DNA of 64,000 nucleotides from Gemmatimonadota bacterium (GTDB lineage Bacteria; Gemmatimonadota; Gemmatimonadetes; Longimicrobiales; Gaopeijiaceae), in assembly GCA_002724575.1 (NCBI GenBank), contig PBPC01000077.1, forward strand, positions 62,001-126,000, written 5' to 3'. Below are positions 698 through 12,747 of this stretch, piece by piece. Under the pieces are notes generated by a model that saw only the letters and a program-made list of their open reading frames with translations, was not told the origin of the DNA and made no database searches. Made by a program: the position numbers and the translations under genes. Numbering within the stretch: the stretch's first letter is position 1; the number at the start of each line of letters is the position of its first letter.

Positions 698-1420
698 TTA
701 CGCTATTCGCTTAGAAATCCACATCGTTCGGTACACGGCAGTACCTATCGCGCCCGTAGCGAGAATTATTAAGCCAGCGGCGAGAAGCATGCCTGGTTCA
801 TATCCGAGGATTGGATCAAGGATGCCGCCCAAGCCAACCAGAAGGATCCGTTCGGCCCTCTGCATAATACCCGCCTTGCATACGACCCCTAGGCTCTCAC
901 CTCTAGCGCGTGTGTAACTCACGAGCAGAGACCCTCCGATCGCTAGAGCAACCACGATCGTCAGAGTTACTGACTCACGGTAGAAAACCGCGAGTCCGAC
1001 GAATGCACTAACTTCAGCGAATCGGTCGAGGGTAGAATCAAGGAACGCACCCCTCGGTGACGCTAGTCCTTGACCTCGGGCGACTCTGCCATCTAAAACA
1101 TCAAGTGCTCCACTGAGGAGTAGGAGCCATCCACCAGGGTTGAGATTGCCATTTCCGAAACAGAAACCAGCCCCGACTCCGAGAGCCACCCCAGTCAGAT
1201 TGAATGCGAGGGGGGCGATTCTTAGCCCAATAGCTAGGCGCTCTACCGGACCTAAGAACCAATAGAGCCAGCTCCGCACGAATGAGCCAAGAAGAAAGTC
1301 TCCTCGATCACCAATCTCATTTTGGTCTTCCCGTCGATAAGCCCCAGTAACAACGAAGATAACTGACGAAAGGAAGGTTATACCAACGACAATCACTAAT
1401 CCCAAAAGTTCAGAACTCAA
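698..1420 (-). CDS. CDP-alcohol phosphatidyltransferase family protein
   Basis: Motif DVLDGRVARGQGLASPRGAFLDSTLDR fits DxxDGxxAR(x8)GxxxDxxxD; multiple hydrophobic segments. Confidence 0.88.
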   Translation of the reverse strand: MSSELLGLVIVVGITFLSSVIFVVTGAYRREDQNEIGDRGDFLLGSFVRSWLYWFLGPVERLAIGLRIAPLAFNLTGVALGVGAGFCFGNGNLNPGGWLLLLSGALDVLDGRVARGQGLASPRGAFLDSTLDRFAEVSAFVGLAVFYRESVTLTIVVALAIGGSLLVSYTRARGESLGVVCKAGIMQRAERILLVGLGGILDPILGYEPGMLLAAGLIILATGAIGTAVYRTMWISKRIA

Positions 1421-1466
1421 AGCTCGGCCTCATAATCCGGCAAGTAACTCGACTGTGCTCTGTTAG

Positions 1467-2420
1467 TCACTGGCGAAGATCCTTCTTCGGTCTCGAGAGG
1501 AAAAATGTGATTGCCCTGGGCCAAAGGAACAGCAGTGGAAATCGGCGTTCTAGCCATGTCAGCTTGATTTCCTGCCCGCTGTGTCGCTCCGCTTTTCTCA
1601 CTATATACGGTAACCATTCCTCAAAAGTCACAGTGTGCTTTAGGGTTCGTATCCCCATTCTCACTTTCGACCGCATGAAGTGCAATTGCCATCTCAGCGT
1701 TTCCCAAGTGCTGGAGGGTGCGGTTAATCGATACCGACCTTCCTCAGCTATCATGATCCCTTCTTGCTCTGCGTTAGAAAGCACAGGGCCAAGCACCTCG
1801 AGAAAGTGATCCGTCTGCGCTTCATAGGTGTGTTTGTGTCGGTCAGTCGCTTCTGGTCGAAATTCTCCTCGATAGCATACCTCAAGTATACGACGACCCA
1901 AACCGTCAGCATTGACTGGCTCAGTGAGGTAGGGGGCCATCCACATGAGTACGCGAGCTCTCGCACCCGCCATAACAGCTTCCACCCATTCCCTATCTTC
2001 ATCAGAGGCAACCCAGATAACTGCCATCCTCTGAACTAGTCTACTGAGTAGGTAGTGATCCTTAGGTCGTGGCCCGAGAGCACGTTCGAGATGATTTCGA
2101 GTAACGACATTACACTTCGCGACCCTGCCCGTGTCCTCTTCTGGGGAATAGGCAATCACATTGGGAGGTAAGATGTGCGCCATGGTTGATATCAAGCGCA
2201 CTGACCCCCGCAGGTTCCCTGAATTCTTGAGGGCAGAATAGAATGCTCTATAGTCGTCTACTAGGACAATGAAATCGTAAGCGCTATAGCGGTTAGGGCT
2301 CGTTCCATGGAGGTGTGAACCATACAGCAATACGCACCGCACCTGGCCTCCTCCTGCTTGCACGAGTCCACTTGCGAGCTCGCGAGCACCAACTAATCCC
2401 GACGCTACTCCATCTGTCAT
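1467..2420 (-). CDS. Tam41/Mmp37-like nucleotidyltransferase (candidate phosphatidate cytidylyltransferase)
   Basis: LLYGSHLHGTSPNRYSAYDFIVLVDDYRAFY...KCNVVTRNHLERAL...HYLLSRLVQRMAVIWV...ILEVCYRGEFRPEA resembles the recalled Tam41 YGSG...DFxxxVDD...KYGV...GRLQKP...YxGDFR pattern; sits between plsC-like and CDP-alcohol PT genes. Confidence 0.72.
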   Translation of the reverse strand: MTDGVASGLVGARELASGLVQAGGGQVRCVLLYGSHLHGTSPNRYSAYDFIVLVDDYRAFYSALKNSGNLRGSVRLISTMAHILPPNVIAYSPEEDTGRVAKCNVVTRNHLERALGPRPKDHYLLSRLVQRMAVIWVASDEDREWVEAVMAGARARVLMWMAPYLTEPVNADGLGRRILEVCYRGEFRPEATDRHKHTYEAQTDHFLEVLGPVLSNAEQEGIMIAEEGRYRLTAPSSTWETLRWQLHFMRSKVRMGIRTLKHTVTFEEWLPYIVRKAERHSGQEIKLTWLERRFPLLFLWPRAITFFLSRPKKDLRQ

Positions 2421-3262
2421 GCGACGGACTCTCCACGCATCTGGGCAAGGCCGGCCACCATCTGCTTCCGAACTTCTCCTATGAACGGATCCGGATCTAG
2501 TGTGGGGTCATTCCACTCAAGCTCACTCACGAATGCAACCTCACCATTCATCTCGTTTATGCCACTAAGAAAATTCTTGAACTTCGCATATTTCCAGAAG
2601 CCGTCTCCAACAAGTACATAGACCTTCCAGGCACGAGCCTGAAGGATCCGCCTGAGCCCCGCTTTCTTGAACCGACCGATATTACCATCCTTCGTCCTGG
2701 TCCCCTCTGGAAAAATCGCTACTGGCACCTCTGCCGTGCGGGCGACCTCACTAAGATTATCAGTCATTCCAAGGGCATCGCGTCGGTTTGCCGTAGGGTC
2801 AACGACTGGGTATTGATAGAGTCTGATCATGTGCGAGATTAGCGGAATCCAGCGCCTGTATCGTTTACGTGTAACAATTAAGGGGTATCCACCTCGCACT
2901 GATGTACATACCATCGGAATGTCTAGCAGGGATTGGTGGTTCATGATTATGAGGACCCCTGACTCAAAAGGGACCTGAGGTGGTGGGGCGATGCTTGCGC
3001 CACCCAAGAACACCATTGGCCTACTTGTGAGCCAAGCCATTGCCTGCATCCAAGCTCCCAGAACCCGTTTGCGACTTGAAGGTATGAGCCACACCAAAGG
3101 TCCTATGAGAAATCTCTGCACTAGATCGCATAAGACCATGCCTAAAGTCACGGCCAACAGAGATACCACCCCACGTAACTTCAAATGAGTCGTCTCCAAA
3201 AACAGAAAGGACTTCAGATTGACATGAAGCACACAAGAAACGCTAACCAGTTCTGCTGACAA
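2417..3262 (-). CDS. plsC: 1-acyl-sn-glycerol-3-phosphate acyltransferase (PlsC family)
   Basis: NHQSLLDIP (HX4D-like, NHQSxxD) and FPEGTRTKDG motifs; 4-nt overlap with the downstream gene. Confidence 0.85.
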   Translation of the reverse strand: MSAELVSVSCVLHVNLKSFLFLETTHLKLRGVVSLLAVTLGMVLCDLVQRFLIGPLVWLIPSSRKRVLGAWMQAMAWLTSRPMVFLGGASIAPPPQVPFESGVLIIMNHQSLLDIPMVCTSVRGGYPLIVTRKRYRRWIPLISHMIRLYQYPVVDPTANRRDALGMTDNLSEVARTAEVPVAIFPEGTRTKDGNIGRFKKAGLRRILQARAWKVYVLVGDGFWKYAKFKNFLSGINEMNGEVAFVSELEWNDPTLDPDPFIGEVRKQMVAGLAQMRGESVA

Positions 3263-3282: not shown

Positions 3283-3960
3283 ATGAGCCTACCAGATCAC
3301 ACATACTACGGCTTCAAGAATTGCGTGGGAGCATTTTTCGAGATGCCGACTTCAGACGCGCGCGCGCTACTCCCCGCTCATCTTGAGCCACTTGAGATGC
3401 AGCATACCCGTAGCATTTTGGCCCTAACTGCATTTCAGTTTACTCAGAGTGAGGTGGGAGAGTATGAAGAGATCGTTCTGGCAGTAATTGTGCCCCCGAT
3501 GATTGAGGTTGATAAGCAAATCCCTAAGGCTGCCTTTTACCCCTTTATGGTCGGCACCTCCTCCGAGGCATCCCGGTTACACGCGATCGAACGTTGGCAC
3601 CTGCCGCACTACATGAAGGACCTGGAGATATCATTCACTGAATCTGAGTTGCAGATGGATGTGAACGTCCGTGATGGTGATGATTCAGTGCTTGATTTTA
3701 CTGTGACTAAACACGATTACGTGCCTTCGAAGAGCCTGTACAATGCATTTACAGTTGAGGACGACGGAGACAGACACTTCAAGGCAAACATCTACATGGA
3801 AGCCCCTCACTCGGAACACGAAGAGGAAAAAGGCTCTCTTACGCTATACAAACACCCAATGACGGAAGGGCTGACACTTGATGACGTCAACGCTTACCCC
3901 TTTCGTGAACAGTGGTACAAAGAGGGCCTGCAAACGTTCGAGCCCCTCCTGACCCTTTAG
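3283..3960 (+). CDS. Acetoacetate decarboxylase-like (ADC-fold) protein
   Basis: 225 aa; the layout FFEMPTSDARALLPAHLEPLEM...G..EEIVLAVIVPP resembles ADC-family proteins; no catalytic motif confirmed. Confidence 0.5.
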   Translation: MSLPDHTYYGFKNCVGAFFEMPTSDARALLPAHLEPLEMQHTRSILALTAFQFTQSEVGEYEEIVLAVIVPPMIEVDKQIPKAAFYPFMVGTSSEASRLHAIERWHLPHYMKDLEISFTESELQMDVNVRDGDDSVLDFTVTKHDYVPSKSLYNAFTVEDDGDRHFKANIYMEAPHSEHEEEKGSLTLYKHPMTEGLTLDDVNAYPFREQWYKEGLQTFEPLLTL

Positions 3961-3990: not shown

Positions 3991-4932
3991 GTGAGCCGCC
4001 ACTTCGTCATCTTCAATCCAGCCGCAGGTAGGGGCCGCGGCCTCAAGAGGATTGAGGTCTACCGGGCCCTCTTAGCTGAGCACATAGGCCGGGTAACCTT
4101 TGCGGCAACCACTCGTGCCGGGGAAGAGCGCGATCTCGCAGATCAGGCCATTGCCCAAGGCTATAACATCATTGTCGCTGTTGGGGGTGACGGAACCTGG
4201 GGTAACGTTGCTGACCGCATTGCAGCCAGTGGTCGCGAGGACGTCGCTCTTGGAATCTTGCCGAATGGAACTGGTAATGACTTTGGGCGAAACCTTGGAT
4301 ATGACCCCTCAAGCCCTGAACAGGCAGTCCTCACTCTCGCAGCAGGACACATCCGCCCCGTAGATATGGGCCGGGTGGAAACCCTTAGCGCGGCTGAGAA
4401 CACACCTCATGTCATGGAACAAAGGAATTTCTTGAACTTGGTCGGCTTCGGTTTTGACATCGCAGTCATAGATGCTGCTGCTAGGGCACGGTTCTTAAAA
4501 GGTGAGTTGCTCTACAAGATCACCGCGCTCCAGCAGCTGTTCCGATTCACAGGTATCCGAGTGGGTATAACTGGGGAGAAGAGTGCGGCGCGAGACGGAC
4601 GTCATTTGATGCTGACCATCTCGAGTGGACGTTTTTTTGGAGGAGGATTCCCGATTGCGCCCGATGCGAGTGTTCAGGATGGATACCTCCACGCTTGTCG
4701 CATCCAAGATGCCCCTGCATTTACAAGGCTTAAGCTCTTTAATAGAGCGGAGCGCGGGCTCCACGTAAGCTCAGACCGGGTTGAGGTCTTGGCTGATAAA
4801 CGCTTTAGTCTAGAATTCGAGGAACCACCTCGCTTTGAAATGGACGGCGACGTGAGGCAGGCCGCAGGCAATACAGTCGAGGTGAGCATTTTACCACGGG
4901 TATTAGGAGTAGTGGCACCGGAGAGGCTTTGA
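3991..4932 (+). CDS. Diacylglycerol kinase family lipid kinase
   Basis: FVIFNPAAGRGRG, VAVGGDGTWGNVADR, LGILPNGTGNDFGRNLG motifs; GTG start. Confidence 0.92.
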   Translation: MSRHFVIFNPAAGRGRGLKRIEVYRALLAEHIGRVTFAATTRAGEERDLADQAIAQGYNIIVAVGGDGTWGNVADRIAASGREDVALGILPNGTGNDFGRNLGYDPSSPEQAVLTLAAGHIRPVDMGRVETLSAAENTPHVMEQRNFLNLVGFGFDIAVIDAAARARFLKGELLYKITALQQLFRFTGIRVGITGEKSAARDGRHLMLTISSGRFFGGGFPIAPDASVQDGYLHACRIQDAPAFTRLKLFNRAERGLHVSSDRVEVLADKRFSLEFEEPPRFEMDGDVRQAAGNTVEVSILPRVLGVVAPERL

Positions 4933-4935
4933 GAC

Positions 4936-5625
4936 CTACTCCTTCCTGAGACTGCCTCCACCTACGTGCCAGCGCTCCTCTGCCAACCACTTCGCATCCT
5001 CTTCATCATGGCTCACAAGGACAATCGGCACACTCCTATCTAGGGCCCAATCACTGACAAGCTCTGATAACTCACCTCGTAGAGGCCGATCAAGCGCTGA
5101 AAACGGCTCGTCAAGAAGCAAAAGCCTAGGTTTTGAAAGTAACGCCCGACCCAGTGCTACCCTCTGCCGCTCACCCCCAGAAAGCCTCCTGGACCGCCGA
5201 TCAAGCAAGTCCTCTATCTGAAGTAAAGCGGCGGTTTCTGAGACCCAATCAGGTAGTGCGCCCCCGTAGCTTAGGTTCTCTCGTACAGTCAGATGCGGGA
5301 AGAGAAGTGTCTCCTGAGGAACCCAACCTACCCGCCTATCCCACGAAGGGACCCATGTTCCATTCGAACTGTCCTGCCAGCAATGCTCCTTAACTAGCAC
5401 GGTTCCGTACGCTCGTCGTTCTACTCCTGCCAAAATTCTCAGGATCGTACTTTTTCCTGATCCTGAAGGACCCACTACAGCAATCCGGGTGCTCGCTGTA
5501 TTCAACTCGACCCTTAACCCTCCCCCGGTGAAGGGGATCTCTAGATCTAGGCCTAAATGGAAATTCGTGTCAGCGGGCATGTCGGTCTTCCAATCGACGT
5601 TTTTGTCTCCGTGAGAGCACCTCAA
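4936..5625 (-). CDS. modC: Molybdate ABC transporter ATP-binding protein
   Basis: Walker A GPSGSGKST, signature LSGGERQRVALGRAL, Walker B LLLLDEPFSALD; downstream of modAB. ATG at 5580 is an alternative start with less overlap. Confidence 0.85.
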   Translation of the reverse strand: MRCSHGDKNVDWKTDMPADTNFHLGLDLEIPFTGGGLRVELNTASTRIAVVGPSGSGKSTILRILAGVERRAYGTVLVKEHCWQDSSNGTWVPSWDRRVGWVPQETLLFPHLTVRENLSYGGALPDWVSETAALLQIEDLLDRRSRRLSGGERQRVALGRALLSKPRLLLLDEPFSALDRPLRGELSELVSDWALDRSVPIVLVSHDEEDAKWLAEERWHVGGGSLRKE

Positions 5626-7171
5626 ATCCTAGTAAGGCTATTAGCGAGATAATCACACTCGCACCCACCAATACCCAGACCGTCTCTCTTCCGGTCGGTG
5701 ACTCCAAGAGCGTATACACAGCGAGAGCGATTGTCCGGGTCGACCCTTCAACATTGCCTGCCAACACTACGGTGGCTCCGAACTCACCCAGGGAGCGCGC
5801 GAAAGCAAGGACTGCCCCGGCCGCAATTCCCGGCAAGGCCAGCGGTAGCGAGACACGGAAGAATGTTTTCCATGGAGAACACCCGAGTGTCCAGGACAAC
5901 TCTTCATACATCGGGTCTACTGCTTCAAATGCACCACGCACAGAGATCACATAAAGCGGTAGGCCTACGACCAATGCAGCAATCGACGCACCAAGTATCG
6001 TAAACGGCACGGGGAAGCCTATTGACGCTATTAGCCCTCCCAGGGGAGTAGAGGCCCCTAACACACTGAGAAGAAGGAAGCCGGTTACAACTGGCGGTAT
6101 AACCAGGGGGGCTGTGACGATAGTGGAGAGAACCGTTTTCCCGCGAAAATCACGGCGTGCAAGTACCCACCCGAGCCCTACGGCAGGGATTAGGCCCACC
6201 AAGGTTGCTAGGAAAGCAACGATAAGGGATAGACGTACCGCAGATGATACAGATGCCACTAAATCATCACCCGTATCTCCCGCGGCTTGCCCTTGTGATT
6301 CTCCGTCAGCTACAAAGGACTGAGGCGGGCTGAATCCCGCCTCTCTAAGGAACGGCTGCCCCGCGTCGCCTAAGACGAAGTTCACAAAATCAGCTGCCGA
6401 CTCTTCATGCGCTGTGGATCCTAGTGGAACTCCCCAATATTGAGCTTGTGGATATTCGGGTCCTTCAAAAACGAACGCTATGCTCACCGACGGCTCCGCT
6501 TCCGCATCCGTCCGATACACGATTCCGGCCGGGACCTCACCTCGTGCAACCCACTCCAAAGCCCCTCGTACTGACCCTCCTCTAACCACGTCCTTCTCGA
6601 TCTCTGACCAGACCCCTGCTTTTTCCAATGCTGTTCGAGCGTATTTCCCTGCGGGTACATTTTCACCAGCTAGGGCAATCCGCTCAAAACCCAATAGCAT
6701 GTCAGGCTCCAAAGGTACAGAAATATCTCGAGAAACGGCGATTACCAGTTCGTTGGCTGCAAAATGGACAGCGCTGCCAAGCGATACAGTTCCTTGCTCC
6801 TCGAGCCACCGGATCCACTGAGGGTCGGCGCTGAAGAAAATATCGCCGGCACCACTTTGTGAGGCCTGGACCGCTAGACGGGATGTCGCGTCAAATGAAA
6901 ATACTAGAGGGATCCCACCTAATCTTTCCCATTCATCCCCGATTCTTGGTAAGACATCGGCGAGGCTAGCTGCAGCAAGAACTAGCAGGACTGAGTCACT
7001 TGCTTGTTCTGTTGTGCGGGAGCCTCCCGTCAAGCTAGCCCCGTTGAGCTGCATCGGGGCCAGTAATACAGCCGACCAAATAGCTGCAAGTATACTCTTT
7101 TTTCTTAGCTCCCTGAGAGAGAGTGCTCGGGGCTGTACCCAGCGGGTGCTAGTCTTGGCTTTATGAAACAT
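5570..7171 (-). CDS. Fused molybdate-binding protein and permease (ModA-ModB)
   Basis: N-terminal ModA-like region (LAAASLADVLPRIGDEW...VVFSFDATSRLAVQASQSGAGDIFFSAD style) followed in the same ORF by a ModB-like permease (RLSLIVAFLATLVGLIPAVGLGWVLAR...LPLALPGIAAGAVLAFARSLGEFGATVVLAGN). Confidence 0.85.
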   Translation of the reverse strand: MFHKAKTSTRWVQPRALSLRELRKKSILAAIWSAVLLAPMQLNGASLTGGSRTTEQASDSVLLVLAAASLADVLPRIGDEWERLGGIPLVFSFDATSRLAVQASQSGAGDIFFSADPQWIRWLEEQGTVSLGSAVHFAANELVIAVSRDISVPLEPDMLLGFERIALAGENVPAGKYARTALEKAGVWSEIEKDVVRGGSVRGALEWVARGEVPAGIVYRTDAEAEPSVSIAFVFEGPEYPQAQYWGVPLGSTAHEESAADFVNFVLGDAGQPFLREAGFSPPQSFVADGESQGQAAGDTGDDLVASVSSAVRLSLIVAFLATLVGLIPAVGLGWVLARRDFRGKTVLSTIVTAPLVIPPVVTGFLLLSVLGASTPLGGLIASIGFPVPFTILGASIAALVVGLPLYVISVRGAFEAVDPMYEELSWTLGCSPWKTFFRVSLPLALPGIAAGAVLAFARSLGEFGATVVLAGNVEGSTRTIALAVYTLLESPTGRETVWVLVGASVIISLIALLGFEVLSRRQKRRLEDRHAR

Positions 7172-9144: not shown

Positions 9145-10260
9145 TTAGTCGAGCAACCTCAACGGCATCACTAGACACAGGTAGTCCAATTTCTCTAAAT
9201 CCTCCGACTCAGTAGGCTCTATTGTTACAGCTCTTTCAGGAGCCTTGAAGGCTATATCCACTTCATCTGTCGGCATATAACGAAGCACTTCTAGAAGATA
9301 GTTTGCATTAAATCCTATCTCGATCTCTTCCCCTTCATAACCGACCTCTAGCTCATCTTGGCCTTCTCCAAGATCAGGGGTAAGAACGTTTAAATGGAGT
9401 CTATTGTTTTCGAATTTAAGTCTTATTCTGTGTGTTTGGTCAGATGCTACCACCGCCATTCTTCGTACCGCTGATTCCAGTGCCTTTTTATCGACGGTTG
9501 CTACTTTGTCGTTATCTCTAGGTATAACCGCTTCATAATTTGGATAAGTTCCTTCTATCAGCCTCGTATATACTTCAGCAGTCCCAGCTTTAAAGCCTAA
9601 ATGGTTTCCACTTCGTGCCACTTCTAGCATTTCATCTTTCTTAAAAAGCCGTTGTACCTGCTGTAAGGCCGCCGGTGGTACAATAAAGTCAGCCGAGGAA
9701 GCATCCCCTGATTCCGCAGGAACACCCATCCGTGCTAGACGATGACCATTCGTCGAAACCATTCTCATCGCTCCATCACGAAGTTCCCATAAAACTCCGT
9801 TGAGTATTGGTCTACTCTCTTCGTTAGAAACTGCAAACGATGTGTGATGAATCAGACGGTTTACTTCCATCCCTGTTACACTCCAGCCTTCTTCAAAATC
9901 CACTTCTGGAAGTGAGGGGAATTCATCAGCTGCAAGACCATTTAACTTGAAATGGCCCCTTCCGCTCTTGAGTTCAATCTGGGTTCCTATCGTAGACACT
10001 TCAATCGGCTGATCCGGTAATTCCTTTGTGATTTCTTGAAGTTTCTTACCAGGAGCAGTCAAGCTCCCCTCTTCTCTTACATCAGCTGGAACTTGAATTC
10101 GAACTGCTACATCCAAATCCGTTCCACTCATCCAAACACTCCCATTTTCAGCCTGAAAAAGGATGTTCGATAACACTGGGAGTGTGGTTTTAGATGGGAT
10201 ACTTGCAGATACCGCTGCTAGACCATTGTGAAGGTTCTGTCGGGTAATTGTGAAGTTCAT
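9145..10260 (-). CDS. dnaN: DNA polymerase III sliding clamp beta subunit
   Basis: 371 aa; MNFTITRQNLHNGLAAVSASIPSKTTLPVLSNIL and C-terminal YLCLVMPLRL; downstream of dnaA. Confidence 0.97.
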   Translation of the reverse strand: MNFTITRQNLHNGLAAVSASIPSKTTLPVLSNILFQAENGSVWMSGTDLDVAVRIQVPADVREEGSLTAPGKKLQEITKELPDQPIEVSTIGTQIELKSGRGHFKLNGLAADEFPSLPEVDFEEGWSVTGMEVNRLIHHTSFAVSNEESRPILNGVLWELRDGAMRMVSTNGHRLARMGVPAESGDASSADFIVPPAALQQVQRLFKKDEMLEVARSGNHLGFKAGTAEVYTRLIEGTYPNYEAVIPRDNDKVATVDKKALESAVRRMAVVASDQTHRIRLKFENNRLHLNVLTPDLGEGQDELEVGYEGEEIEIGFNANYLLEVLRYMPTDEVDIAFKAPERAVTIEPTESEDLEKLDYLCLVMPLRLLD

Positions 10261-10335
10261 TTAGGCGGTTCCTAAAACGGACCGAGTAAGTTTCAACAGT
10301 GGTTAGATACTATGTATTCTTCTTAAAGAAAAACA

Positions 10336-10368
10336 TAGTAGTAGTAGTAAGTGTGGAAGTGTGGAAGA
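10336..10368 (+). promoter_or_regulatory. Candidate DnaA-trio-like element with adjacent degenerate DnaA-box-like repeats
   Basis: TAG TAG TAG TAG TAA (10336-10350), then TGTGGAAGT (10352-10360) and TGTGGAAGA (10360-10368) in the dnaA-dnaN intergenic region. Confidence 0.5.
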
Positions 10369-10488
10369 AAGATATAAGGACATCTCAATCTAGTAGGTTT
10401 TGTAAGTATATACGCTACTATGTCCTTAGGTTGAAAAGTGAAGGATTTTTTCACTAATAATCCAGAAAAATCACTGGTAAAATAAAAG

Positions 10489-10525
10489 TGTGGATAAGTC
10501 AGGCTTTATCCACGAGTTACCCACA
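10489..10525. promoter_or_regulatory. DnaA-box cluster (putative oriC component)
   Basis: TGTGGATAA at 10489-10497 (exact reverse complement of TTATCCACA), TTATCCACG at 10506-10514, TTACCCACA at 10517-10525. Confidence 0.75.
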
Positions 10526-10545
10526 GCCTACCTAGATGCGGTATC

Positions 10546-11928
10546 CTAACCGGTGAAGTCTTCTCTCACTGCGTGCACTAATTCCTTAAATACCGGATCC
10601 CTCTCCATCTCTTCCTCAACTTTTCGGATGGAGTGAATCACAGTCGAGTGGTCTCTTCCTCCAAAGAATTCTCCAATCCGGACAAGGGACAGATCAAAGG
10701 TTTCTTTGATAAGGAACATAGCAACCTGTCTAGGGACGGTTAAATCTTTGGTGCGCCGTTTGGAAGAGAGGGCGTCAGCGCGAACCCTCCACCTGCTAGC
10801 GACAATTTCCCTAATTCTTTCAGGAGAAAGAACTGGCCCTTTTTCTCGTTTTTGACCTAGGGATCCCCGGAACGCCGTTTTAGCTAGGTCGGGAGTAATT
10901 TCACGGTTGGTCAGTGAAGAGTACGCCAAAAGCTTAATTATCGCGCCTTCGAGCTCTCGAACAGAGGAGGTACACGAGTGGGCAATAAACTCAATCACTT
11001 CTGAGTCTAGGCTGAATCCGTCATCGGCTGCTTTCTTCTGTAGGATAGCCATCCGGGTTTCGTAGTCCGGCGGCTTCACGTCCACTACCAGGCCCCACTC
11101 AAAACGGGATACAAGTCGGCTCTCTAGGCCTGAGAGATCTTTAGGTGGCCGGTCGCTGGTTAGGACAATCTGGCGTTGCGCATCATAAAGAGCGTTGAAA
11201 GTGTGGAAGAACTCTTCCTGAGTCCGCTCTTTGCCCTCTAGGAAATGGATGTCGTCAACAAGCAGTAAGTCCATCTCGCGATACTGCTTTCTAAATGCTG
11301 CGGTTGTCCCCTGTTGGATAGACATGACCAGTTCGTTCATAAACTGCTCTGACGAGACATAACAGACACTCCTCAGAGGATTTTCGCTCCCCATGTGGTG
11401 TCCGATTGCATGCATCAGATGAGTCTTTCCTAGACCAACACCTCCATAAAGGAATAGGGGGTTGTAGGTTTTAGCCGGCCGATCAGCTACGGCTCTAGCA
11501 GCAGCAGCAGCAAGCTGGTTGTCGGCCCCGACCACGAACCGCTCGAAAGTGTAGCGGTCATTCAGCAATGGTGCGGTAATGGAGTCTGACGCAAGGGAAG
11601 GGATGTCCTCGTGAGCACTGTCCTCAGTGGCCAGAGTAGTAAGGTCGACCGAAGAAGCGGAGGCGGACGAACCCACAGCAGCACAGGTGACCGTGATTTT
11701 GATCGGCCTGCCGAGGATTGCTTCTGAAGAAGCAGACAGAACAGGGCCAAACTTGTCCTCAAGCCACTCGACATGGAAACGTGAAGGCACCTCAAGTTGC
11801 AATTCGTTTGAGGTGAAGGCGACAGCCACAGCAGGCTTAACCCATGTCTGATAGCTCTGCTCAGGAACAGAGGCCTGGACCGATTCTCGGATCCGACTCC
11901 ATAATTCTGGGGCAGTCAACTCCACCAT
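10546..11928 (-). CDS. dnaA: Chromosomal replication initiator protein
   Basis: NPLFLYGGVGLGKTHLMHAIGH, LLVDDIHFLEGKERTQEEFFHTFN, C-terminal FFGGRDHSTVIHSIRKVEE. Confidence 0.98.
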   Translation of the reverse strand: MVELTAPELWSRIRESVQASVPEQSYQTWVKPAVAVAFTSNELQLEVPSRFHVEWLEDKFGPVLSASSEAILGRPIKITVTCAAVGSSASASSVDLTTLATEDSAHEDIPSLASDSITAPLLNDRYTFERFVVGADNQLAAAAARAVADRPAKTYNPLFLYGGVGLGKTHLMHAIGHHMGSENPLRSVCYVSSEQFMNELVMSIQQGTTAAFRKQYREMDLLLVDDIHFLEGKERTQEEFFHTFNALYDAQRQIVLTSDRPPKDLSGLESRLVSRFEWGLVVDVKPPDYETRMAILQKKAADDGFSLDSEVIEFIAHSCTSSVRELEGAIIKLLAYSSLTNREITPDLAKTAFRGSLGQKREKGPVLSPERIREIVASRWRVRADALSSKRRTKDLTVPRQVAMFLIKETFDLSLVRIGEFFGGRDHSTVIHSIRKVEEEMERDPVFKELVHAVREDFTG

Positions 11929-12139
11929 ATCTCTTGGTCCGCAGGTGGAATCCAGGGTGGGGAATAGCTAGAGACTGGCAACATAGAGTAGGACGGGCCT
12001 GCATCATTCGAAGGTGGTACTGACGGGTGGGGCTAGCCGACCCGGGGGCGCCGAACCTACCAAGCGAAACTCAAAAAATCAAACTTCTAGTTTCTTGGGT
12101 TTATCCAAGGTCTCCGTGAAGCATTGAAGATCGCCACCG

Positions 12140-12169
12140 TTGACGCTTTCTCGCGGGCTCGGCTATCTT
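12140..12169 (+). promoter_or_regulatory. Candidate sigma70-type promoter for rnpA/rpmH
   Basis: TTGACG (12140-12145), 18-nt spacer, TATCTT (12164-12169); about 30 nt before the first start codon. Confidence 0.45.
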
Positions 12170-12198
12170 TTTCTGCTCGTTTCTGGATGTAAGATACA

Positions 12199-12747
12199 AT
12201 GGATTGGGCTACCCCCGATGAAGCCGACATACAAGCCGCGGAATCGCAAAAGACTCAACACGCATGGATTTCGTGCACGGATGAAAACCCGAGGCGGCCG
12301 CAGGGCCCTCAATCGTCGTCGGAGACGAGGTCGCGCTCGGCTAGTAGTCTCGATCGGCCGCAAGTAGCACCAGTCAGGGCGGACCGCTCGGAGCACTTCC
12401 CTAGAAGTGTCCGGATTCGGCGGAGCAATGAAATCCAGGAAATCCTCCGGCAAGGGAAACGGGAGCGTACGAGGAATCTTGAGATCTTTTTTGCCCGCCC
12501 TAAAGCATCATTTTCCCGGCTTGGTGTGATTGTGCCGAAACATGGACAACGCATTGTCGACCGGAACCGACTGAAAAGGCGATTGCGTGAAATCGGTCGG
12601 CAACGAGTGATCCCACATTTGAGCTCAAGGGGTCGCGAAGGAGATGTGCTTATTCGGGCTACCCGCTCAGCGTATAGGGCGAGCTTTGCTGACCTCAAAA
12701 GGGAAATAAACGAAGCGGTGGAGGGGTTTTGCTCAGAAAAATCCTGA
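12199..12747 (+). CDS. rnpA: Ribonuclease P protein component with N-terminal extension overlapping rpmH
   Basis: C-terminal RnpA region [17 protein letters not shown]...[28 protein letters not shown]. The only in-frame ATG/GTG/TTG before this domain is ATG 12199. Confidence 0.88.
12218..12367 (+). CDS. rpmH: 50S ribosomal protein L34
   Basis: [49 protein letters not shown] (49 aa); canonical L34. Confidence 0.97.

Follow-up and report, generated by a model that had tools for sequence, protein, structure and literature searches.

Tam41 (TAMM41) is the mitochondrial CDP-DAG synthase. In Caulobacter, CpgB is a proven ceramide kinase (PMC10331486), and genetics shows CpgC (CC_1161 / CCNA_01219) to be needed on the way from ceramide-1-phosphate to the first head-group lipid; the CC_1161 mutant produces neither CPG nor CPG2 and is complemented (PMC11324152). 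For CC_1161, an InterPro CDP-DAG-synthase domain was noted, and the same study proposed an "NDP-activated ceramide" (PMC11324152); a May 2026 preprint describes CpgC as converting ceramide-1-phosphate to ceramide phosphoglycerate "via an unidentified mechanism" (PMC13228409). In the inositol phosphoceramide pathway of Bacteroides (BT_1522-1526), inositol phosphate is placed first on DAG, from which an AUR1-like synthase transfers it to ceramide (PMC9246714, PMC8791184). The inositol-phosphate-binding residues of the PIP synthase MtPIPS are S132, K135, R155 and R195 (PMC4634129).

Here, we compare with these systems a locus of a marine Gemmatimonadota bacterium in which a nucleotidyltransferase (NTase) gene lies between genes for an acyltransferase and a CDP-alcohol phosphatidyltransferase. 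The window is the whole stretch of DNA that was analysed, 64,000 nucleotides of contig PBPC01000077.1.

Organization of the locus

A preliminary description of the window had proposed a tight minus-strand operon of plsC-like, NTase and CDP-alcohol phosphatidyltransferase genes, and all three ORFs were present as described. The PlsC-like (LPLAT) acyltransferase gene (2417-3262, minus strand; PF01553, E 1.4e-16) encodes HX4D (NHQSLLD) and FPEGTR motifs, and its true start is probably at about 3199, where the first residue of close homologues is encoded, and not at 3262. Its stop overlaps the start of the NTase gene (1467-2420, minus strand, 317 aa) by 4 nt (ATGA), and 46 nt separate the NTase gene from that of the CDP-alcohol phosphatidyltransferase (698-1420, minus strand; PF01066, E 4.5e-13). 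The motifs that had been read in the NTase, YGSH, SAYDFIVLVDD, KCNVV, LVQRM and YRGEFR, were all found in the 1467-2420 product.

It was found that the conserved block exceeds these three genes, as a divergent gene for an ADC-like (acetoacetate-decarboxylase-fold) protein (3283-3960, plus strand) and a YegS/BmrU-family lipid kinase gene (3991-4932, plus strand; TIGR00147, 137 bits, above the cut-off; PF00781, E 2e-29) adjoin the operon across the phylum. The recurring order, seen in 30 loci, is lipid kinase and ADC-like genes in one half and plsC-like, NTase and CDP-OH-P transferase genes in the other, the halves being divergent; the plsC-like gene beside the NTase is conserved in 21 loci. Among 249 Gemmatimonadota genomes, 41 have a relative of the NTase. 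The NTase and the locus-type transferase occur together in 40 genomes; the two exceptions (G212 and G229) each have a contig break inside the locus. This co-conservation is far above chance.

The ADC-like product matched PF06314 under the cut-off (E 2e-6), and its Foldseek matches were ADC/MppR (E 4e-10). No invariant lysine was found in the alignment of this family, so that ADC activity is doubtful for the 3283-3960 product although the fold is that of ADC.

Beyond the kinase gene, an ATPase gene (4936-5625) overlaps a single 533-aa ORF (5570-7171, minus strand) that combines a PF13531 molybdate-type substrate-binding domain (residues 62-280) with a PF00528 ABC permease domain (331-524), a fused ModA-ModB arrangement that is kept in the genus. 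Farther along, dnaN-like, dnaA-like and rnpA-like ORFs lie at 9145-12747, followed by YidC-like (12989) and MnmE-like (14756) ORFs, all named from their translations. Because the sign of the GC skew switches at about 10 kb, the replication origin probably lies in the dnaN/dnaA region, about 8 kb from the lipid operon. At a locus of another genus (L154; G122:C22:11000-27500), genes for serine palmitoyltransferase (SPT), the ADC-like protein and the kinase are likewise a few genes from dnaA/dnaN.

Relationship of the NTase to Tam41

The preliminary description had read the NTase as a Tam41-type protein that should match PF09139. For the window sequence on its own this was not the case: a single-sequence Pfam search gave no PF09139 match up to E 10, and the corresponding NCBIfam and PDB searches yielded nothing useful, so that family profiles were needed. 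At the level of the family, PF09139 was reached by 11 of 35 members scanned singly (best E 4.6e-6), and the sole matches in a PF09139 search of 150 genomes of the phylum were two members of the NTase family, at 20 bits vs a cut-off of 24. When a profile of the aligned 35 Gemmatimonadota sequences was compared with the PDB, the best match was Tam41 of S. pombe (6ig2), over about 210 residues and with E 0.008; the alignment pairs YGS, D..V-D, the lysine in KCNVV, the arginine in LVQRM and E-x-R in YRGEFR with Tam41 residues. The Tam41 match improved to E 1.4e-4 when proteobacterial members (see below) were added to the profile. A profile of the proteobacterial half alone had no match in the PDB, and the six proteobacterial NTases had none in Pfam; therefore, the link to Tam41 depends on the Gemmatimonadota sequences and on the profile in which both halves are combined.

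The suggested comparison of an AlphaFold model with Tam41 bore out the resemblance at the level of the fold. Using an AlphaFold2 model of the NTase (pLDDT 88), the first five PDB structures ranked by Foldseek were all bacterial or yeast Tam41 (E 5e-8 to 2e-5, TM 0.5-0.58), the best being 7ecd (E 5.4e-8), and the first match to another protein had E 6e-4, with antibiotic and defence nucleotidyltransferases ranking behind Tam41. As in Tam41/TAMM41 (PF09139) and FbTam41 (7ecd), an NTase fold is followed by a C-terminal helical region, and YGS, D..VDD, K, R and G-[DE]-x-R elements are present. Loss of the metal- or CTP-binding residues had been named as a sign against the Tam41 reading, and it was found that the GS, D..VDD, K, R and [DE]-x-R positions are conserved: G34, S35, D49, K102, R127, E186 and R188 (window numbering) are invariant or nearly so in the 35 members, and are invariant also when the proteobacterial members are included. 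Because the two are distantly related (12-16% identity, TM about 0.5), the profiles and the predicted structure lead us to regard the NTase as a Tam41-like, remote homologue and not as a certified PF09139 member.

It is very improbable that the NTase is no lipid cytidylyltransferase at all, but an enzyme for the modification of a protein or of another small molecule, or a regulatory relative of the antibiotic-type nucleotidyltransferases. Weak matches of individual members to Polbeta (11/35, best 0.0014) and to streptomycin adenylyltransferase (6/35, best 8.5e-5) point in that direction, whereas the full-length Foldseek and profile matches are to Tam41, the catalytic residues do not vary between members from the two phyla, and the NTase gene is surrounded by lipid genes.

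CdsA in genomes with the NTase

The preliminary description had placed the NTase in the CDP-DAG synthase position and proposed a search of the genome for cdsA. A CdsA was found in the same genome (PF01148, E 1e-50), with a GHGGILDR motif and in an frr-uppS-cdsA-dxr context, and CdsA is present in 247 of 249 genomes of the phylum, including all those that have the NTase. Given this co-occurrence, a replacement of CdsA by the NTase is not supported, and the earlier assignment was abandoned; because CdsA is present, CDP-DAG needs no second enzyme. The same genome has a PgsA gene beside cinA and a PssA gene beside a Psd-like gene (names read from the sequences). The NTase thus differs from Tam41 in that it does not replace CdsA and is linked to sphingolipid genes, as described below, and also in that its single sequence is under Pfam detection.

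The NTase could nevertheless be a true Tam41-type CDP-DAG synthase that works alongside CdsA and provides the neighbouring PIP-synthase-like enzyme with a dedicated pool of CDP-DAG. The PlsC-like protein and the lipid kinase would then make phosphatidic acid (PA), the NTase would convert it to CDP-DAG, and phosphatidylinositol phosphate would be the product, which is the pathway of the preliminary description. The sole experimentally known activity of Tam41, including one Tam41 from Firmicutes, is CDP-DAG synthesis (PMC11646218), and the plsC-like gene in the operon agrees with this reading; the near universality of CdsA in the phylum argues against it. On balance, we consider a dedicated CDP-DAG pool unlikely, for reasons that include the properties of the transferase and the gene linkages given in the following sections.

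The CDP-alcohol phosphatidyltransferase and MIPS

The 698-1420 product is predicted to be a PIP-synthase paralogue that transfers a CDP-lipid onto inositol phosphate. Its NCBIfam matches were to archaetidylinositol-P synthase (NF040950, 125 vs a cut-off of 180 bits) and PIP synthase (NF045883, 100 vs a cut-off of 170 bits), and profile matches in the PDB were to RsPIPS (5d92, E 5.6e-22) and MtPIPS (6h53, E 2e-20). Like these enzymes, it is a class I CDP-alcohol phosphotransferase, in which the signature aspartates D107, D110, D128 and D132 (D1xxD2G1xxAR...G2xxxD3xxxD4) are invariant over 34 locus and 28 canonical sequences. The residues S168, R171, R191 and R231, which correspond to S132, K135, R155 and R195 of MtPIPS, are also invariant in the 34 locus transferases and the 28 MIPS-linked PIP synthases, the arginine at the K135 position being common to the locus transferases and the phylum's own PIP synthases.

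Unlike the MIPS-linked PIP synthases of the phylum, the locus transferases form a clade of their own (split 100/100), and they differ from canonical PIPS at positions 71, 74, 174 and 189, of which 71 and 189 correspond to the donor-side residues D31 and P153 of MtPIPS. This residue pattern fits the use of the same acceptor with a different lipid donor, and drift of a paralogue could also give it. With respect to a dedicated CDP-DAG pool, the intact PIP-synthase-like residues are as expected, and the locus enzyme could stand in for the separate MIPS-linked PIP synthase in the genomes that are without one (about two thirds of those with the NTase, judged by match counts), but the donor-side positions are unlike those of canonical PIP synthases.

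MIPS was found in 41/41 NTase genomes; as a correlate of the NTase it is weak, since it is near universal (227/249 genomes; 41/41 vs 186/208, p 0.03). The MIPS gene of the window genome (G000:C98:21443-22663, L070) has no adjoining PIP synthase gene, and 28 of 30 other MIPS loci have one. By match counts, about two thirds of the NTase genomes have the locus-type transferase only and have kept MIPS.

Association with serine palmitoyltransferase

When the NTase and SPT were scored across the 249 genomes, both were present in 38, the NTase only in 3, SPT only in 8, and neither in 200 (Fisher p 2e-33, genomes being counted as independent and relatedness left uncorrected). Within one genus, the corresponding numbers were 5, 0, 1 and 12 (p 7e-4), and because the pattern holds inside a single genus, the effect of shared ancestry appears to be limited. 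In deeper lineages the SPT gene sits between the ADC-like and PlsC-like genes, inside the NTase locus, and in the SPT loci examined the ADC-like gene directly follows SPT, often overlapping it, with the kinase gene commonly next. The three congeners of the window's organism have the SPT-ADC pair elsewhere in the genome. SPT was not detected in the metagenome-assembled genome of the window itself, which is 88.7% complete, nor in the NTase-bearing genomes G075 (one contig) and G127.

The alignments and database scores identify the alpha-oxoamine synthase of these loci as an SPT, closer to SPT than to BioF, KBL or ALAS. Its best PDB match was Sphingobacterium SPT (3a2b) with 304 bits, vs 257 for the nearest non-SPT alpha-oxoamine synthase; the TFSKS lysine motif is present in the aligned sequence, and NCBIfam SPT models rank first, yet under their cut-off.

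The ADC-fold family (window 3283-3960; L145:9230-9889), which overlaps the end of the SPT gene, is present in two copies in the window's genus, one with SPT and the other with the kinase. It is possible that this family is a new partner of bacterial SPT.

NTase relatives in Pseudomonadota

Searches of plasmids with tblastn found the NTase, annotated as "hypothetical protein", in Roseomonas, Diaphorobacter, Pseudomonas and Qipengyuania. An hhalign comparison of the Gemmatimonadota half of the family with six plasmid proteins from these four genera gave a probability of 100% and E 2.6e-39. The gene order on the Roseomonas plasmids, metallophosphoesterase, CDP-alcohol transferase, diacylglycerol kinase-like, NTase, SPT and ACP, is that of Caulobacter CC_1158-1163 (PMC11324152), with the NTase in the place of CpgC. 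In a second phylum, that of the genome bearing locus L008, which behaves like Pseudomonadota, the NTase was found in 27 of 399 genomes. Among 26 Pseudomonadota-like NTase neighbourhoods, a lipid kinase gene is directly upstream in 25, and SPT lies within 8 kb in 16.

Judged by synteny, the NTase would belong to the family of Caulobacter CpgC, whose gene position, in a kinase-NTase pair beside SPT, is shared by its Roseomonas relatives. The window's operon differs from that of CpgC in that its kinase is of the YegS type, its transferase is PIP-synthase-like and not CpgA-like, and PlsC-like and ADC-like genes are added. Comparison of the window kinase with the CpgB-type kinase of Roseomonas revealed no recognisable orthology, and an orthologous relationship between the two is not supported; a ceramide kinase activity of the window kinase is therefore one that we infer. 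The tight linkage to SPT, together with the ceramide genes beside the relatives in Pseudomonadota, is not expected if the NTase provides a dedicated CDP-DAG pool.

On a Qipengyuania citrea plasmid (L181), the kinase and NTase genes form a bare pair with no SPT or CDP-alcohol transferase gene nearby, which suggests that the two are a minimal functional unit. At L008, NTase, PlsC-like, SPT, ADC-like and kinase genes occur together; no CDP-OH-P transferase gene was found beside this NTase and no MIPS match in its genome, and it follows that inositol is not universal.

Proposed pathway

From the observed family memberships, linkage, co-occurrence and residue conservation, we infer a lipid substrate, a pathway order and a product. 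We estimate a probability of roughly 55% that the operon encodes the head-group steps of a pathway for bacterial phospho-sphingolipids, leading from CDP-ceramide to ceramide phosphoinositol phosphate. In this pathway, SPT, whose gene is in the locus in deeper lineages and at another site of the genome in the window's genus, would begin the synthesis of the long-chain base and ceramide, and the YegS-type kinase would form ceramide-1-phosphate (or the phosphate of a sphingoid base). The Tam41-like NTase would then transfer CMP from CTP onto ceramide-1-phosphate to give CDP-ceramide, from which the PIP-synthase paralogue would transfer ceramide-phosphate onto the myo-inositol-phosphate supplied by MIPS, giving ceramide phosphoinositol phosphate. 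N- or O-acylation are candidate roles for the PlsC-like acyltransferase; CerS, CerR and a (PIP) phosphatase were not located.

The preliminary description had instead proposed a route from lysoPA through PA to CDP-DAG. This route would not lead one to expect the linkage of the block to SPT and a lipid kinase or an NTase family that fits the CpgC position. Because of these two results and the presence of CdsA, ceramide-1-phosphate is the more likely lipid substrate, rather than PA.

The NTase may also activate another lipid of the pathway, for example a sphingoid-base phosphate that has yet to be N-acylated, with the PlsC-like protein acylating later, or it may use a different nucleotide. Such a variant is somewhat less probable even than a dedicated CDP-DAG pool. 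It would account for the position of the plsC-like gene immediately upstream of the NTase and for a ceramide synthase not having been identified, and the nucleotide was left open ("NDP-activated") in the Caulobacter work (PMC11324152). However, Tam41 uses CTP, CDP-alcohol phosphatidyltransferases use CDP donors, and the kinase partner in Caulobacter phosphorylates ceramide (PMC10331486).

Discussion

The proposed CDP-ceramide pathway resembles that of Bacteroides in being a bacterial route to an inositol sphingolipid that involves MIPS and a PIPS-type enzyme. In contrast to Bacteroides, no AUR1-like gene was recognised in the NTase loci, and it seems to be the lipid itself that is activated. 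The NTP transferase of the alternate Bacteroides cluster was considered as a counterpart of the NTase and rejected, as it is phosphocholine-cytidylyltransferase-like and not Tam41-like (PMC9246714). If the partner transferase takes inositol phosphate, as is plausible, the CDP must sit on the lipid and not on the head group.

A more general proposal, which we put forward tentatively and at slightly less than even odds, is that bacteria have a CDP-ceramide route in which a Tam41-fold CTP:ceramide-1-phosphate cytidylyltransferase feeds a PIP-synthase paralogue, CpgC being of the same enzyme class. In the literature collection searched, no paper combined "CDP-ceramide" and "bacteria". Membership of CpgC in the NTase family would explain its mechanism. 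A Tam41 fold for the CpgC family would make the attachment of a head group to ceramide-1-phosphate in bacteria directly testable. If the proposal is true, inositol sphingolipids would be made by a second route in addition to the AUR1-like one, and the Tam41 family would have a bacterial sphingolipid branch.
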